Source: Lentimicrobiaceae bacterium
GTDB taxonomy: Bacteria > Bacteroidota > Bacteroidia > Bacteroidales > F082
Direction of reading: 5' to 3'
NCBI GenBank assembly: GCA_031262365.1
Contig: JAISHW010000068.1
Span: 1-60,368 of the forward strand
Length of the DNA: 60,368 bases
The notes beneath the pieces were generated by a model. That model did no database searches, was not told where the DNA came from, and saw nothing but the letters and a program-made list of their open reading frames with translations. A program made the position numbers and the translations under genes. The first letter of the stretch is position 1. Every line of letters begins with the position of its first letter. Below are positions 48,385-57,094 of the stretch, in pieces.

Positions 48385-49275
48385 ATGATGGAAAATAAAA
48401 TTATTGACGGTAAAGCCATTGCAGCTGAACTGAAAAAAGAAATTGCACAAGAAGTAGCGCAAATAATCGACAAGAACCAAAAAGCACCACATTTGGCAGC
48501 TGTTTTGGTAGGAAACGATCCCGCCAGCAAAACATACGTTAGTTCAAAAGAAAAAGCGTGTAAAGCTGTCGGAATCACTTCGTCGGTATACCAACTGAGC
48601 GAAAATACAACCGAAAAAGAACTCATCGACGTGATTCAGTTTTTGAACAACGATGATGAAATCGACGGGTTTATCGTACAACTTCCGCTACCAAAACACA
48701 TCAATCCTGATCGAGTTATCGAAACCATTCATCCGGCAAAAGACGTTGACGGATTTACACCGACAAACGTAGGTCGTATGCAACTTGGAATGCCTTGTTA
48801 CGTTCCGGCAACACCATTCGGAATTGTTGAATTGCTCAAACGCAGCAACGTAGAAGTCGAAGGCAAACATGTTGTCGTACTCGGTCGCTCGAACATTGTC
48901 GGCACACCGATAAGTATTTTGCTTTCGCGCAAAGCCGAAGGAGCAAACGCCACCGTAACTCTTTGCCACAGTCGTTCGAACGATTTGATTTCGTTTACAA
49001 AACAAGCTGATATTCTGATTGCTGCAATCGGTCAGAAAGAATTTGTAAAAGCCGATATGGTAAAAAAAGGCGTTGTTATTATTGATGTGGGCATTCATCG
49101 AGTTGCTGATTCGAGCAACGAAAAAGGATACAAAATTGTTGGCGATGTCGATTATGAACCGGTTTCGAAAATGGCATCGAAAATCACGCCCGTTCCGGGT
49201 GGTGTAGGACCGATGACGATTGTTTCGTTGCTTTACAACACGTTATTAGCATCGAAAAAAGCAATTTACAAATAG
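48385..49275 (+). CDS. folD: methylenetetrahydrofolate dehydrogenase / methenyl-THF cyclohydrolase
   Basis: FolD interconverts methylene-, methenyl- and formyl-tetrahydrofolate with NADP, feeding purine and formyl-methionine synthesis. The 296-residue product has TYVSSKEKACKAVGI with the catalytic lysine, GFIVQLPLPKHIN, PATPFGIVELLKRS, VVLGRSNIVGTPISILL and PVPGGVGPMTIVSLLYNT. It is the last chromosomal gene before the cassette-like insertion, which begins 74 bp after its stop. Confidence 0.97.
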   Translation: MMENKIIDGKAIAAELKKEIAQEVAQIIDKNQKAPHLAAVLVGNDPASKTYVSSKEKACKAVGITSSVYQLSENTTEKELIDVIQFLNNDDEIDGFIVQLPLPKHINPDRVIETIHPAKDVDGFTPTNVGRMQLGMPCYVPATPFGIVELLKRSNVEVEGKHVVVLGRSNIVGTPISILLSRKAEGANATVTLCHSRSNDLISFTKQADILIAAIGQKEFVKADMVKKGVVIIDVGIHRVADSSNEKGYKIVGDVDYEPVSKMASKITPVPGGVGPMTIVSLLYNTLLASKKAIYK

Positions 49276-49435
49276 TTTGAAATTTACGACACGTATAGGA
49301 TTTATTCCGAAAACGAACTTTGGATACTCTTGTTTGGCAACGAAGAACGTTGGCGGTAATTTTAACGGATAGTGCAAAAGATGAACGACACACCTTGTGA
49401 CATTCAAAAAAATAAGAAGACAAAACTTTGCAAGA

Positions 49436-49975
49436 ATGGAATTTGACATAACACAACTTGACAAAAAAATTTTAGTACAGGCTTTATTTGCTCATTCCGC
49501 ACCCCTTAACTTAGGACAAGCAGAATATGATTATAAAAAAAAACTTGGCGACAATGTTGACGGCTTGTCGGACGAAGAATGTGAAATGATTTTATATGAG
49601 TTTAAGCACTTTAATACAGGTGGATTAAGAATTCTTGACTATCACAAAGGGAAACCAATTAAGTTAGTTTTCTACAAAAATAGAAATGGACGAGTTTTGG
49701 TAGACACAGGAAGTTATGATGCAAGAAATGGAAAGTATAGATTTTTTGAAGCCCTCTTAAATATTTTTTCAATTGACGAAATTCTAATAACAAAGAAAGG
49801 TTATAAACACTATGAAATGACAGATTTGCCAGAGCATTTAGTAAGACCAAAAGAACAAGAAGAAATGTTCAAAAATATATTGAAGAATACTATCGAGCGA
49901 GAAAATGAATATGGAAAATATTGGTCTATTGACGAAAATAAAGTTTCATATACACTACCATTTATGCGACTATGA
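49436..49975 (+). CDS. first cassette protein, unknown function
   Basis: A 179-residue soluble protein starting MEFDITQLDKKILVQALFAH; a GTG 13 codons earlier is open but less likely. I recognise no family. A short helical start (SAPLNLGQAEYDYKKKLGDN) leads to a strand-rich centre (LRILDYHKGKPIKLVFYKN, VLVDTGSYDARNGKYRFFEA) and a charged helical end (EEMFKNILKNTIEREN). The stop overlaps the next start (ATGAG, 4 bp), so the two proteins are probably made together and may interact. Codons are AT-rich, unlike the flanking genes. Confidence 0.7.
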   Translation: MEFDITQLDKKILVQALFAHSAPLNLGQAEYDYKKKLGDNVDGLSDEECEMILYEFKHFNTGGLRILDYHKGKPIKLVFYKNRNGRVLVDTGSYDARNGKYRFFEALLNIFSIDEILITKKGYKHYEMTDLPEHLVRPKEQEEMFKNILKNTIERENEYGKYWSIDENKVSYTLPFMRL

Positions 49976-51042
49976 GTAATTACAATTTTTATTACCCAAA
50001 CAGATTTCGTGAAAAAACACGAAATTTTGATAACTTGTTCAATGAGTGGAAATCCATTGAAAATGCTTGGGGACGTGCGTTAAAACAAGAGCAAGTAATA
50101 GATAAGTATTTTGGTAAAGACCAACCTAATGAAATAAAGAACTCCAAACTTTTCAGCATTTTAGAATATCGTAGATTTGAAAAGGCAGGCTCAAATATTT
50201 TTCATTTAAAAAAAGAATTATTAGAGCTATTAGAAAAAACGGATGTTTCTGATATACAAATTGGACAAATCAAGTTTCCATTTGATAATTTTTATATTTC
50301 GCTTAGAGAGCTTGGAAAACCATTGCCGACAAACATTTCTAAAGATGCGATAATTGATGGTGTTTACGTTTCGTTTACGGACGACTCCAAAGAAGAACTG
50401 ATTTACAAATACCATATTAATTTTCATATTTGCGGATATTCTGAAAGCAAAAAAGACGTTGAGTTCAAGTTAAATGTTCAAGACATTATGGAGCTTCCTT
50501 CAGGTTTAACATTTACCAATGAAACTGCAACAATCACAGATGCAATTGCAGAAGTTCATAAAATAATGACTGACACTCTTGAAAGTAAAACAAGAGACCA
50601 GAAAGAGATTGAAAAGGAAATTAATTACCAACTTGAAGAGTATAAACTTTTAAAAGACAATTTGAACTTAATGGTTAATTGTCTTCTTTATCTCTCGTCC
50701 GAAAAGCCCGACATTGAAATCAAATTTGCAGACGGGTTGCCCGTTAACATTAAAAACAAAATAGAAAAGGCGAATACAAAACATAGGAGAGAATTAGCTG
50801 AAAGTGAAGCGAAAAAATTTGGTTACTCAAAAATTAAACTTGTTGGAAATTCTTTTACAAAAATATCTTCAAAGAATAATTCAAACACAAATGAAGTTGC
50901 TCCCCATTGGAGAAGAGGACATTGGAGAAATCAACCTTTTGGGAAAGAACTAACAGAGACAAAAATAATTTGGATAAAACCGACAATAGTAAATAAAGAA
51001 AAAGGTGAACCAACAAAAGGACACATTTACACAACAGAATGA
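49972..51042 (+). CDS. second cassette protein with C-terminal HWRRGHWR motif
   Basis: A 356-residue soluble protein. The first 100 residues are charged and helical. The middle is strand-rich (AIIDGVYVSFTDDSKEELIY), and a coiled-coil-like stretch at about 205-235 (SKTRDQKEIEKEINYQLEEY) follows. The C-terminus has the motif APHWRRGHWRNQPFGKE then IIWIKPTIVNK. I recall this motif from proteins of plasmids, phages and integrons, AcrVA2-like proteins among them; that is memory of a family pattern, not a search. It ends 14 bp before the attC-like palindrome, as expected for a cassette gene. Confidence 0.7.
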   Translation: MSNYNFYYPNRFREKTRNFDNLFNEWKSIENAWGRALKQEQVIDKYFGKDQPNEIKNSKLFSILEYRRFEKAGSNIFHLKKELLELLEKTDVSDIQIGQIKFPFDNFYISLRELGKPLPTNISKDAIIDGVYVSFTDDSKEELIYKYHINFHICGYSESKKDVEFKLNVQDIMELPSGLTFTNETATITDAIAEVHKIMTDTLESKTRDQKEIEKEINYQLEEYKLLKDNLNLMVNCLLYLSSEKPDIEIKFADGLPVNIKNKIEKANTKHRRELAESEAKKFGYSKIKLVGNSFTKISSKNNSNTNEVAPHWRRGHWRNQPFGKELTETKIIWIKPTIVNKEKGEPTKGHIYTTE

Positions 51043-51055
51043 AAAGAAAAACTAT

Positions 51056-51184
51056 CGCCAACACGGGTTTTGCGTCAGGCGGGGTGACGTGCAAACTTGG
51101 AGCTTTGTGCTTCGTAACAAGTTCAGTGCTGGTTGACAGTTTTGTGCTCCGAAACCCGCTCGAACGCAAAGCCCGAAAACGTTA
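51056..51184 (+). repeat. attC-like recombination site of the cassette
   Basis: A roughly 130-nt imperfect palindrome. The outer cores are CGCCAAC (51056-51062) and CGTT (51180-51183). Inner arms are GGGTTTTGCGT (51065-51075) against 51164-51174 (10 of 11 paired) and GCGGG (51079-51083) against CCCGC (51155-51159). Unpaired bases bulge on one side, as in attC sites. The centre contains further imperfect pairing around GGAGC/GCTCC. A long open frame runs through it into queE but is not coding. Confidence 0.65.
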
Positions 51185-51200
51185 CCGCTCAAAATCGTGT

Positions 51201-51830
51201 ATGATGAAAACGAGTGATATTTTACAAAACGGTCGCATGCTTCCGCTGATGGAAGAATTTTATACGCTGCAAGGCGAAGGACACAACATGGGATTGGCTG
51301 CCTATTTCATTCGCGTTGGTGGCTGCGATGTGGGGTGTCGTTGGTGCGATTCGAAAGCATCGTGGAACGCCGATTTATTTCCGCCCGTTTCAGCCGACGA
51401 AATTGCTGATCGCGCTGCTGCGTTTCCGGCAAAAACAGTTGTTGTTACCGGCGGTGAACCTTCGCTTTATCCGCTCGATTATTTCACCGAATTGCTTCAT
51501 TCGAAAGGCGTTAAAACAATGATCGAAACATCAGGAGCTTATTTGTTGAGTGGTAAATGGGATTGGATTTGTTTGTCGCCAAAAAAAAATGCACCGCCCA
51601 AAATGCAAGTTTTGCAAGCGGCACACGAGCTCAAAGTAATTATTCAAGAACAAAACGATTTAATTTGGGCAGAAGAAAATGCTTCGTTGGTAAATGAACG
51701 TTGTTTGTTATATTTACAACCCGAATGGCGTGTTTCAGAAAAAATTATGTCATGGCTAACCGATTATGTAATGCAATATCCAAAATGGCGCATCAGCTTG
51801 CAAAGCCACAAATACATGCATATTCCATAG
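51201..51830 (+). CDS. queE: 7-carboxy-7-deazaguanine synthase (radical SAM)
   Basis: QueE makes 7-carboxy-7-deazaguanine in the synthesis of queuosine. The 209-residue product has MEEFYTLQGEGHNMG, the radical SAM iron-sulfur motif in GGCDVGCRWCDSKASW (CxxxCxxC), VVTGGEPSLYPL, METSGAYL-like MIETSGAYLLSG and the C-terminal ISLQSHKYMHIP. The frame is open upstream to 51039, but those residues come from the attC-like palindrome; the start is at 51201 (or the adjacent ATG at 51204). The 3' end overlaps the following OmpA-family gene. Confidence 0.94.
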   Translation: MMKTSDILQNGRMLPLMEEFYTLQGEGHNMGLAAYFIRVGGCDVGCRWCDSKASWNADLFPPVSADEIADRAAAFPAKTVVVTGGEPSLYPLDYFTELLHSKGVKTMIETSGAYLLSGKWDWICLSPKKNAPPKMQVLQAAHELKVIIQEQNDLIWAEENASLVNERCLLYLQPEWRVSEKIMSWLTDYVMQYPKWRISLQSHKYMHIP

Positions 51831-53859: not shown

Positions 53860-55164
53860 TTAATTTTGTGTGTGTTCCAATAACCAATCTATCACGTTCA
53901 ATTTGCGTATCCCGTCATAGACGGGGTTAAGGTCGTAGTCCATCGTAAGCAGATACTTAGGATTGGAGTCGTTGATGGCTTTCAGTGAAGCGAGTTCCCT
54001 GTCAAGGGTGGAAGGTTCCATCGTGGAATAGGCAACTTGGTAATACGAAATGTAGCCCTTGATGTCTTCGACAACGAAGTCGACTTCTTTGTCTCGCACC
54101 TTGCCGATATAGACACGTTCGTAGCGGCGAAGTAGTTCCAAATAGATGACGTTTTCTAATAGACGACCTATATCCACCTGCATGCGTTTGGGCAAACGGG
54201 ATTGGCGGAAGCCTGTATCGGACAAATAATATTTCTCAAATGTCCTTAGAAAGCCTTTGCCTTTGAGGTCGTAACGAGGTACTCGGAAGAGGAGGAAGGC
54301 GTCGCATAAGATATTCAAGTATCTGGATACGGTCTTATTATCAATCACGACTTTCTCGCTCTTGAAGGTGTTAACGATTGAGTTTGGAGAAATCGGTGCA
54401 CCGATAGCATCAAAGAGGAAGTCTATTGTCTTGTTGAAAGCCATTTTGTTATAGACCTCTTGTCTTGTGAAGACATCCTTCTCTATAATGGTGCTCAGTA
54501 TGGCTTTGAGAATCTTCTCCGGGCGCTTATCCTCCTTATAACGCGAGGAAACGGCTTGCGGTATGCCGCCCTCATGCAAATAATCATCGAATATAGTCCT
54601 TGCATAAGCCTTTATTTCAGATTGTTGAGCTAATGTAATATCGCTTAAATTCCTAAAACTTTCACTTTGTGAGTTGTTTTTGGAATTTACAGCATACTCC
54701 AAGTACTCTGCAAAGGAGAAAGGTAAAATGCTTATCTCAATATAACGCCCTGTAAGCAAGGTTGCTAACTCTCCTGAAAGTAGGTAGGCATTGGAGCCGG
54801 TGATGTACAAATCCACATTCTCTTTGATAAAAAGGCTGTCTGCCATGCGCTCAAAGCTGGCAATGTTTTGAACCTCGTCCAAGAAGATGTAGTTCATTTT
54901 GTCCGGCACCAGCTTCGCATCAATGTGCAGGTATATCTGAACGTAATCCCCAATGGCAAGCGTCTTGATGTCCTCAAAGTTATAGAACTGGATTTGCGCT
55001 TCGTCCACATCGGGGCGTATCTCGTCCGCCAGCATCTTCAGCATGGTGGACTTCCCGCTACGACGCATACCGGTCACAACCTTGATGATATGTTGGTCTT
55101 TCCATTCACGCAGTTGCTGCATGTAGGGCTTGCGCTCAATGAGGAGGCTTCTATTATTTCCCAT
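53860..55164 (-). CDS. AAA ATPase with DUF4143 domain
   Basis: A 434-residue protein of the AAA_14/DUF4143 family, common in Bacteroidota and often next to mobile or defence genes; its role is poorly known. It has Walker A VVTGMRRSGKSTMLKML (residues about 30-46), Walker B YIFLDEVQNIASFERM, sensor LYITGSNAYLLSGELAT and LLTGRYIEISILPFSFAEYL. The C-terminal DUF4143 region has RLLENVIYLELLRRYERVYIG followed by KVRDKEVDFVVED and YYQVAYS, a PDDEXK-nuclease-like pattern. It starts one base after the helicase stop and so is the third gene of the module. Confidence 0.9.
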   Translation of the reverse strand: MGNNRSLLIERKPYMQQLREWKDQHIIKVVTGMRRSGKSTMLKMLADEIRPDVDEAQIQFYNFEDIKTLAIGDYVQIYLHIDAKLVPDKMNYIFLDEVQNIASFERMADSLFIKENVDLYITGSNAYLLSGELATLLTGRYIEISILPFSFAEYLEYAVNSKNNSQSESFRNLSDITLAQQSEIKAYARTIFDDYLHEGGIPQAVSSRYKEDKRPEKILKAILSTIIEKDVFTRQEVYNKMAFNKTIDFLFDAIGAPISPNSIVNTFKSEKVVIDNKTVSRYLNILCDAFLLFRVPRYDLKGKGFLRTFEKYYLSDTGFRQSRLPKRMQVDIGRLLENVIYLELLRRYERVYIGKVRDKEVDFVVEDIKGYISYYQVAYSTMEPSTLDRELASLKAINDSNPKYLLTMDYDLNPVYDGIRKLNVIDWLLEHTQN

Positions 55165-55165
55165 C

Positions 55166-57094
55166 TTATACTCGGTCTAAGGGTATAACATTTTCTGTTC
55201 CGAACCATTGTCTGGCCACATCAAGTACTTGGTTACTTGGAGCATGATAGAAAACTGCTAAATTTTCTTTTGCTCTGGTACAACAAACATAGAAAATTTT
55301 TTGCGTACGTTCTAAGACACTTGGTGTACCATTTCTTAAAAAGAGGTTTTCAAAATTATAATCGTTCCATTTCCCATTATCCAAAATGACTAATACATTA
55401 TTAAATTCTGTTCCTTTTGTCTTATGCTGTGTGGAAAAAGGAGTCCTGCCTTCCAAATATTCATATAATAGTTGAAACTCTTTAAAAGGGGCTTTGCGCA
55501 TACGATTCCATAAATACTCTTTATCATGAATAAATTGTTCCAATTTGTCATCTCTGAAAACGATATGATATTCATCAGCTTTATTTATAATATCTTCTAT
55601 TGTATTGGAATCAGCATGAATCAGACTATTAATGTTTTTAAGGAGATCATTCTTATCCTCAATATTAGTAATTTTGTAATCTACTTTCTTTAAGAAGTCA
55701 TGATATAATTCATTCTCATATAAATAAAGAACATCTTGTATCTTGAAGAGATGTCTTATGAGATAATCTCTTTTTGAGCCTTTTTTGTTTTCATCTTCTT
55801 CATCTTGCTTTTTGTCATCAAGCAATTGATCCTTATCCACATACACTTTAGAGAAAGTGGAGTAATCATAATTTAGTGCCATATTGTATAAATCAAGATG
55901 CTGATCAATAAAGGTCTGCATAGCATTGGTTGGCAGAATAGCTTTTAAATCCTGCCCCGTCTTCCCCAATTTTAAGATTTCTATAACTTGTCCAAAAGTA
56001 TTTGCAGAAAAATCAGTTCCTATGCTATGGCTTTTTATGTAATCTTTTATTCGCTTCTTATATGCTAAAATATAATCTTTATCGTAAATATCCATCAATG
56101 TTCTAAAGCCTGCTTTATCTGCAATTAAATTATGAGTAAGATTCAATTCTTTTGTAACCTTAGAATTATTAAAATCCCAATTATATTGTGCTGATAGAAA
56201 TTCTCTACAAGATTCAATATCTCCATCATTTGCATATAGGAACAGTATATGTCCATCTTTTATATTTCCCATAAGCATATTCGGGGCAGTATTATCGTTT
56301 GATGCTTGTTGTTGTAGCCTATCAGTTCTCAACTTATTAGCTAAATCAATGACAGATTGAGGGTTTCTTCTGTTTTGCTGTTTAAGCACTTCTTTAACAC
56401 TTCCTGTATCAATGTAGCTTTTCAAATCTCCTATACCATCTGCATATATAGATTGCATAGCATCGCCGAAAAAGCCAATAATACTTCGTTTACGCCCATT
56501 AGCGAAGTGCTCTAAAAATATCTTCACTACGTAAGGGCTTGTATCTTGGTATTCATCTATGAAAATGAACGGGTATCTATCTTTTACAATGTCACACAGC
56601 TTTGTGTATTTTCGGAACATATGCTCTGCAATAACGATAAGCTCATCATGGGATATAATGCCATTGCGAAGTCTCACATACTCCTTATACTGTATTTCTG
56701 TGACAGGTTCTTCACGATTATCATAAAAATCATCTTGCACTTCCAAAGTATCTTCTATGCGAATGCTGGCAACGTCAGCATCATTTAAAAGTTCTATGAG
56801 AGCCGTTTTCAATTCTTTCTGGAAATGTTTTATATTGTCCCACAAGAAGTCATGTATAGTAGAGACATGCAAGTTCTCATGATTAACACGCTCTTCAATC
56901 TCTTTGACCGCCGCATTGGTATAAGTCATACATGCTATCTGACGAAGAGGATTATCATTAATAACTTGTCTGATAATATTAACCAAGGAATATGTTTTGC
57001 CACTTCCGGCACCACCGCTCAATAAGAAGTTTTCTCGATTGGCAATGTGCCTCATAATTTGTTGCTCTTCAACACCTAATCTTGCTTCAACCAT
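55166..57094 (-). CDS. UvrD/PcrA-like helicase, GajB-like
   Basis: A 642-residue superfamily 1 helicase. It has motif I FLLSGGAGSGKTYSLVNII (residues about 18-36), motif Ia IACMTYTNAAVKEIEERV, motif II PFIFIDEYQDTSPYVVK, and motif III-like IIGFFGDAMQSIYADG. Motif V is FSTQHKTKGTEFNNVLVI and motif VI IFYVCCTRAKENLAVF. It overlaps the OLD nuclease gene by 19 bp. An OLD nuclease plus UvrD-like helicase pair is the composition of the Gabija anti-phage system (GajA and GajB), so GajB-like is the best name. It is longer than the best-known GajB. Confidence 0.82.
   Translation of the reverse strand: MVEARLGVEEQQIMRHIANRENFLLSGGAGSGKTYSLVNIIRQVINDNPLRQIACMTYTNAAVKEIEERVNHENLHVSTIHDFLWDNIKHFQKELKTALIELLNDADVASIRIEDTLEVQDDFYDNREEPVTEIQYKEYVRLRNGIISHDELIVIAEHMFRKYTKLCDIVKDRYPFIFIDEYQDTSPYVVKIFLEHFANGRKRSIIGFFGDAMQSIYADGIGDLKSYIDTGSVKEVLKQQNRRNPQSVIDLANKLRTDRLQQQASNDNTAPNMLMGNIKDGHILFLYANDGDIESCREFLSAQYNWDFNNSKVTKELNLTHNLIADKAGFRTLMDIYDKDYILAYKKRIKDYIKSHSIGTDFSANTFGQVIEILKLGKTGQDLKAILPTNAMQTFIDQHLDLYNMALNYDYSTFSKVYVDKDQLLDDKKQDEEDENKKGSKRDYLIRHLFKIQDVLYLYENELYHDFLKKVDYKITNIEDKNDLLKNINSLIHADSNTIEDIINKADEYHIVFRDDKLEQFIHDKEYLWNRMRKAPFKEFQLLYEYLEGRTPFSTQHKTKGTEFNNVLVILDNGKWNDYNFENLFLRNGTPSVLERTQKIFYVCCTRAKENLAVFYHAPSNQVLDVARQWFGTENVIPLDRV

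Follow-up and report, generated by a model that had tools for sequence, protein, structure and literature searches.

We found that a two-gene block at positions 49349 to 51180 (plus strand) of a 60,368-nucleotide contig of a Lentimicrobiaceae bacterium (JAISHW010000068.1; the whole stretch is called the window here) is very probably a gene cassette belonging to an integron-like system of Bacteroidota, made up of a tyrosine recombinase lineage without the IntI insert, an attI-like point, and attC-like cassette ends of about 125 bp. Since its recombinase lacks the IntI insert, the system is not a classical integron, but it works like one. The initial annotation of the window had offered two origins for the block, insertion by an integron-type integrase or by an unknown recombinase that relies on the same principle of folded strands; our results favor the second. 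Four findings go beyond what that annotation contained, namely, the true arrays, the dedicated recombinase devoid of the IntI insert, the attI-like site, and the similar cassettes that carry resistance genes.

The cassette extends from GTT to the C of ...GAAAAC; its boundaries were read directly, and its layout is shared with 75 array cassettes. It opens with a start box, GTTGGCGGTAATT (49349 to 49361), which is complementary at 11 of 13 positions to the cassette's own R'' box and carries an A at position 11. ORF1 (49397 to 49975) encodes 192 amino acids from a GTG codon, or 178 from the ATG at 49439, and ORF2 (49972 to 51042; 356 amino acids) overlaps it by ATGA. The attC-like site comprises the R'' box, AACTATCGCCAAC (51050 to 51062), and the body of an imperfect palindrome (51063 to 51180), which folds with an outer arm of 12 bp (51064 to 51075 with 51164 to 51175); the assignment draws on the fold, on covariation, and on the covariance model R1 described below. 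All these features, as well as the host genes folD (48385 to 49275) and queE (51201 to 51830), lie on the plus strand. The left host flank (49276 to 49348), ending in GGCAACGAAGAAC, would be a secondary, attG-like insertion point. The right host junction, GTTACCGCTCAAA (51181 to 51193), occupies the R' position; of the 10 bases that follow its GTT, only 3 match R'', which marks it as host sequence and not the cassette's own.

The boundary marks pointed out earlier are present, namely, AACGTT at 49346 to 49351 and 51178 to 51183, and GTTGGCG (49349 to 49355) with its reverse complement CGCCAAC at the opposite end (51056 to 51062). The two co-oriented genes are also AT rich relative to their neighbors, with a GC content of 31% versus 42% for folD and 43% for queE (block, 33%; palindrome, 54%; window, 39%). 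Taken alone, the marks in the window are close to chance. The window contains AACGTT 33 times, GTTGGCG 8 times, and CGCCAAC 3 times, the fold energy of the palindrome is ordinary (z score of -1.6; -1.1 for the other strand), and in a best-match test the window cassette by itself scored 10.0, which did not exceed the shuffled-barcode maximum of 10.0. They stand far above chance because of the family to which the site belongs and of the complementarity recurring in 75 cassettes, 18 standard deviations (SD) over shuffles.

A BLAST search with the palindrome gave matches in 21 of 100 related genomes, several of which had clusters. From 35 palindrome copies we then built a covariance model (R1), which had matches in 246 of the 393 genomes of the order; in the window it found one site only, that of the cassette (143.7 bits). 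Both searches returned many copies with different genes in front, as would be expected from the initial annotation. Twelve pairs were kept by RNAalifold, 11 of them with compensatory changes; the stem is therefore maintained, and the failure to fold that had been named as grounds for rejecting the block did not occur. In named genomes, an exact 26-base core pattern occurred in at least 119 stretches, almost all of them from Bacteroidota, including Flavobacterium, Chryseobacterium, Runella, Spirosoma, Belliella, Dyadobacter, Niastella, Bacteroidales, and others. The same pattern was seen in metagenome-assembled contigs labelled Candidatus Competibacteraceae (JACSSC010000034.1) and Clostridium sp. 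(JAAYTS010000255.1), which represent either spread beyond Bacteroidota or mis-binned contigs.

In several genomes the sites form arrays. Contig C10 of genome G018 carries about 18 to 20 of them, head to tail on one strand and spaced by about 1 kb, and co-oriented arrays of about 15 and 30 sites are present in G281 and G359, respectively. The sites are separated mostly by single genes, and most of the ten such genes tested had no Pfam family. In integrons, R'' is expected to match the start of its own cassette and not the next start. For the first 25 testable cassettes we counted 152 matches between R'' and the own start, against a shuffle mean of 82 (SD, 8), and none of 20,000 shuffles reached this value; for 75 cassettes the count was 404 versus 193 (SD, 11) after shuffling. 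Complementarity at 6 or more of the 7 variable bases was found for 49 of 75 own pairs but, when R'' was compared with the start that comes next, in only 3 of 67 cases. R'' mirrors approximately the first 10 to 13 bases of its cassette. In the 56 good pairs, the start always had A at position 11 and the R'' complement never agreed with it (0 of 56), while the flanking positions did agree; we infer that the invariant mismatch serves to mark strand or orientation. Positions 5 to 9 vary freely in these 56 cassettes, and the cores, including GTTGGCG/CGCCAAC of the window, do not conform to RYYYAAC/GTTRRRY, a deviation already seen in the initial annotation. The window site forms a longer stem, by about 5 kcal/mol on either strand, with its own start than with the sequence now adjoining it.

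The ordinary fold energy of a single site and the frequency of AACGTT in the window would suit a mere terminator or RNA element lying after unrelated genes, with a boundary match due to chance. This explanation is extremely improbable in the face of the own-start complementarity, the absence of a matching Rfam family for the palindrome, the strict strand and position linkage of the sites to a recombinase, and the occurrence of the same tet(X) cassette with exact edges between different flanks (see below). The complementarity and the exact edges already refute it, unless both are artifacts.

In G271, G281, and G359 the array is immediately preceded by an intact tyrosine recombinase gene of the same orientation, and G018, G253, and G368 retain fragments of such a gene. 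Relatives of an alignment of six array-head recombinases (A2) were detected in 149 of 295 genomes, although matches near the threshold may be Xer proteins. We then sampled 60 recombinase loci with up to 9 kb on each side. Fifty-two sites lay downstream on the same strand, none upstream on the same strand, none downstream on the opposite strand, and one upstream on the opposite strand. In 37 of the loci the sequence continued for 1.5 kb or more downstream; 26 of these had a site (for one locus, solely upstream and on the opposite strand) and the other 11 had none. Twenty contigs end within 760 bp downstream of the recombinase, as expected if arrays vary. The surroundings of 20 Xer-type control genes from site-bearing genomes (337 kb) contained no site. 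This constancy of genomic position suggests that the recombinase and the sites belong to one system. Tyrosine recombinases adjoining IS91-type transposases at five loci (L072, L233, L367, L368, and L375) were considered as movers of the cassettes and rejected, because they accompany those transposases and fall on separate branches.

The array-head recombinases have Phage_int_SAM_4 and Phage_integrase domains, often preceded by an N-terminal extension. In the long representatives (L236, 3819 to 5630, and L083, 70 to 1767) the extensions gave weak DUF5710 and HARP-like matches; we know of no IntI with these domains. Judged by its sequence, the recombinase is related to IntI. The top NCBIfam model for the G359 protein (L236) was the integron integrase TIGR02249, with 215 bits against a cut-off of 265, and members of the lineage scored 167 to 215 bits with this model, all below the cut-off; the best structural match of the G359 protein in the PDB was VchIntIA (2A3V; 8e-42). 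The match to both TIGR02249 and 2A3V is split, and with a six-row profile of the recombinases archaeal Xer proteins scored slightly higher. The spacing between the KGxKDR and HxLRH motifs is 58 to 62 residues in every member measured, versus 100 in IntI1 and IntI3, so an IntI-specific insert of about 40 residues, in the patch III region, is absent. This insert is regarded as a defining trait of IntI (PMC9668308) and as essential for integron function, though it is incompletely conserved across a wider integron-like subgroup (PMC8138268). In a tree with mobile IntI1, IntI2, and IntI3 as the IntI sequences, Xer stood apart (100/100), IntI formed one clade (99/99), and the array-head lineage was a separate group (89/86).

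The resemblance to IntI, together with the varied attC sites that IntI accepts, could be taken to mean that a classical integron with a true IntI located elsewhere had made the cassettes, the arrays being clusters of attC sites lacking integrases (CALINs) with unusual attC sites. We regard this as very improbable. The search for intI suggested by the initial annotation yielded no protein over the IntI model cut-off in 21 site-bearing genomes. The insert of about 40 residues is missing from every linked recombinase measured, the cores violate RYYYAAC/GTTRRRY, and the arrays are headed by a dedicated recombinase of their own.

In 31 loci, complementarity to its own R'' allowed us to locate the start of the first cassette. 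In most of them it lay 0 to 240 bp past the recombinase stop codon, and in most of the remaining ones it sat behind an attC-like end, as later cassettes do. The point of entry after the recombinase, called attI-like here, is often preceded by an inverted repeat and a TATAA-rich stretch. It has no similarity to the palindromes, yet it accepts the same cassette ends.

Cassettes of this kind carry known resistance genes in named records. A Chryseobacterium plasmid (NZ_CP041688.1) contains the recombinase, the attI-like point, and cassettes. Two Empedobacter plasmids and one Sphingobacterium plasmid have complete sites on both sides of tet(X) or tet(X2). The similarity among four tet(X) records starts at one identical base, GTTATGTGCCATTTTTGAATGACAATGCG, and this is exactly the base predicted by the cassette boundary rule, which was thereby verified. 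The left neighbors of these four cassettes are one attI-like end and three different palindromes. The tet(X2) cassette is common to two records in which the next cassettes differ. In an Empedobacter plasmid lnu(H) is followed by a site of the family, and blaOXA-347 and estT-floR lie between such sites; the records NZ_CP043636.1 and NZ_CP123862.1, with lnu(H), tet(X2), blaOXA-347, and estT-floR, resemble a resistance cassette array. The xerD gene of the Acinetobacter tet(X3) plasmids is a truncated member of the recombinase family, nested in the array-head lineage in the tree, and it is followed by an attI-like motif, tet(X3), and the first part of an attC-like site. In NZ_CP104735.1 (1495 to 3645), xerD precedes a tet(X3) with a cassette start and a shortened end site. 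Thus, xerD-tet(X3)-res-ISCR2 shares these four elements with the system, with both the recombinase and the end site truncated; in the literature xerD-tet(X3) is treated as an ISCR2 structure and is not described as an integron (PMC8635130).

Because ISCR2 and IS91-like elements do flank some tet(X) copies (PMC8635130), and since the similarity of the palindromes would permit occasional homologous recombination, we considered whether the cassettes move by another route (IS91/ISCR rolling circle, another transposase, or homologous recombination between palindromes), with the recombinase a passenger. Such a route is very improbable: palindromes that otherwise differ share a single junction base, C|GTT, the recombinase consistently heads the array in the same orientation, and the attI-like point takes the same cassette ends without any palindrome similarity.

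Within this system, the window copy is probably an off-array insertion between folD and queE, made by a recombinase that acted in trans or was lost afterwards. No member of the array-head lineage (A2) was found in the window genome (assembly 92% complete, 119 contigs), in which the matches of about 300 amino acids to the IntI model look Xer-like by size. About 14 further sites are scattered on its other contigs, some in a short form of about 112 bp; this scatter and the lack of a detected recombinase give the copy its off-array appearance. For the other scattered sites, no convincing own start was detected within about 1.5 kb upstream, and these sites may be decayed. The left flank of the window cassette has no likeness to an attI or attC end, and secondary-site (attG) insertions are known for integrons. 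Both window genes are absent from the gap in relatives with folD near queE, so that the fixed arrangement named by the initial annotation as contrary evidence was not encountered. An empty site at base level was not obtained among the relatives, whose gap usually holds another gene (the gap of L054 is 177 bp); in most of them (L033 to L061) a conserved gene apparently lies between folD and queE, where the window genome has the cassette instead.

Neither window protein could be given a function with Pfam, PADLOC, NCBIfam, or PHROGs. ORF1 had no family in the first three and no relatives among viral contigs, and ORF2 matched phrog_6160 (unknown function) weakly. One partial homologue of ORF2 (46%) was present in the 392 other genomes of the order, and its short flank contained no site of the family. 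Elsewhere in the window (53860 to 57094, minus strand), an ORF of 434 residues adjoins one of 642 residues; judged by eye, the first is ATPase-like and the second a UvrD-like helicase, possibly a small defense or accessory pair.

From genome sequences we could establish the site family, the arrays, the self-complementary ends, the linkage to the recombinase, the attI-like point, and the exact tet(X) boundaries, and we infer circular intermediates, single-strand folding, and catalysis. The excised cassette would be a circle with a junction of the type AAAAC|GTTGGCGG, in which the own start (GTTRNNNNNNA) would pair with R'' and rebuild the long hairpin. The recombinase would bind the folded single strand and carry out a single-strand exchange at C|GTT, the partner being attI or another site, and the resulting junction would be resolved by replication. 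The mismatch at position 11 would set strand and orientation, like the extrahelical bases of attC.

The system shares with integrons its head-to-tail cassettes of one or two genes, the imperfect palindrome at their 3' end, the complementarity of R'' to the own start, the GTT crossover triplet, an attI-like point by a tyrosine recombinase, and a cargo of mostly unknown genes plus resistance genes. It differs from them in that the recombinase, which often bears an N-terminal extension, lacks the IntI insert, the recombinase gene points in the direction of the cassettes and has the attI-like point beyond its 3' end, the cores consist of GTTR and a free barcode instead of GTTRRRY, with an invariant mismatch at position 11, and its distribution is so far confined almost wholly to Bacteroidota. 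Arrays or lone cassettes without a nearby integrase, as in the window genome, recall CALINs, from which the system is set apart by the recombinase at the array head in many genomes. To our knowledge, Bacteroidota are generally considered almost free of integrons, and this presumption stems from detection tools that require the IntI insert and canonical cores. The only complete integron in Bacteroidetes reported with IntegronFinder 2.0 is that of Salinibacter ruber (PMC9024848), and a study of attC taxonomy models includes no Bacteroidota class (PMC8352920). The resistance genes aph(3')-IVb, lnu(H), and blaRATA of Riemerella anatipestifer show homology-free insertion; in a published experiment aph(3')-IVb brought along 27 bp from its 5' side and 140 bp from its 3' side, the latter noted to fold like attC, and no recombinase, array, or attI was named (PMC13148043, 2026). 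Our literature search, which covered open-licence papers, found no description of the whole system.

We consider it likely that Bacteroidota have an integron lineage of their own, with a recombinase devoid of the domain that IntI is considered to need for recombining folded sites and with hairpin ends bearing a different strand mark, and that this lineage has stocked the phylum with very many cassettes and supplied the plasmids of pathogens with tet(X), blaOXA-347, lnu(H), and other genes. If so, a major platform of gene capture, most of whose cassette genes have no known function, would have been overlooked in one of the most abundant bacterial phyla. It would explain the packaging of tet(X) and several other resistance genes as cassettes before their spread by ISCR2 and plasmids, as well as the attC-like, homology-free insertions in Riemerella, and would offer a natural test of whether recombination of folded DNA needs the IntI insert.
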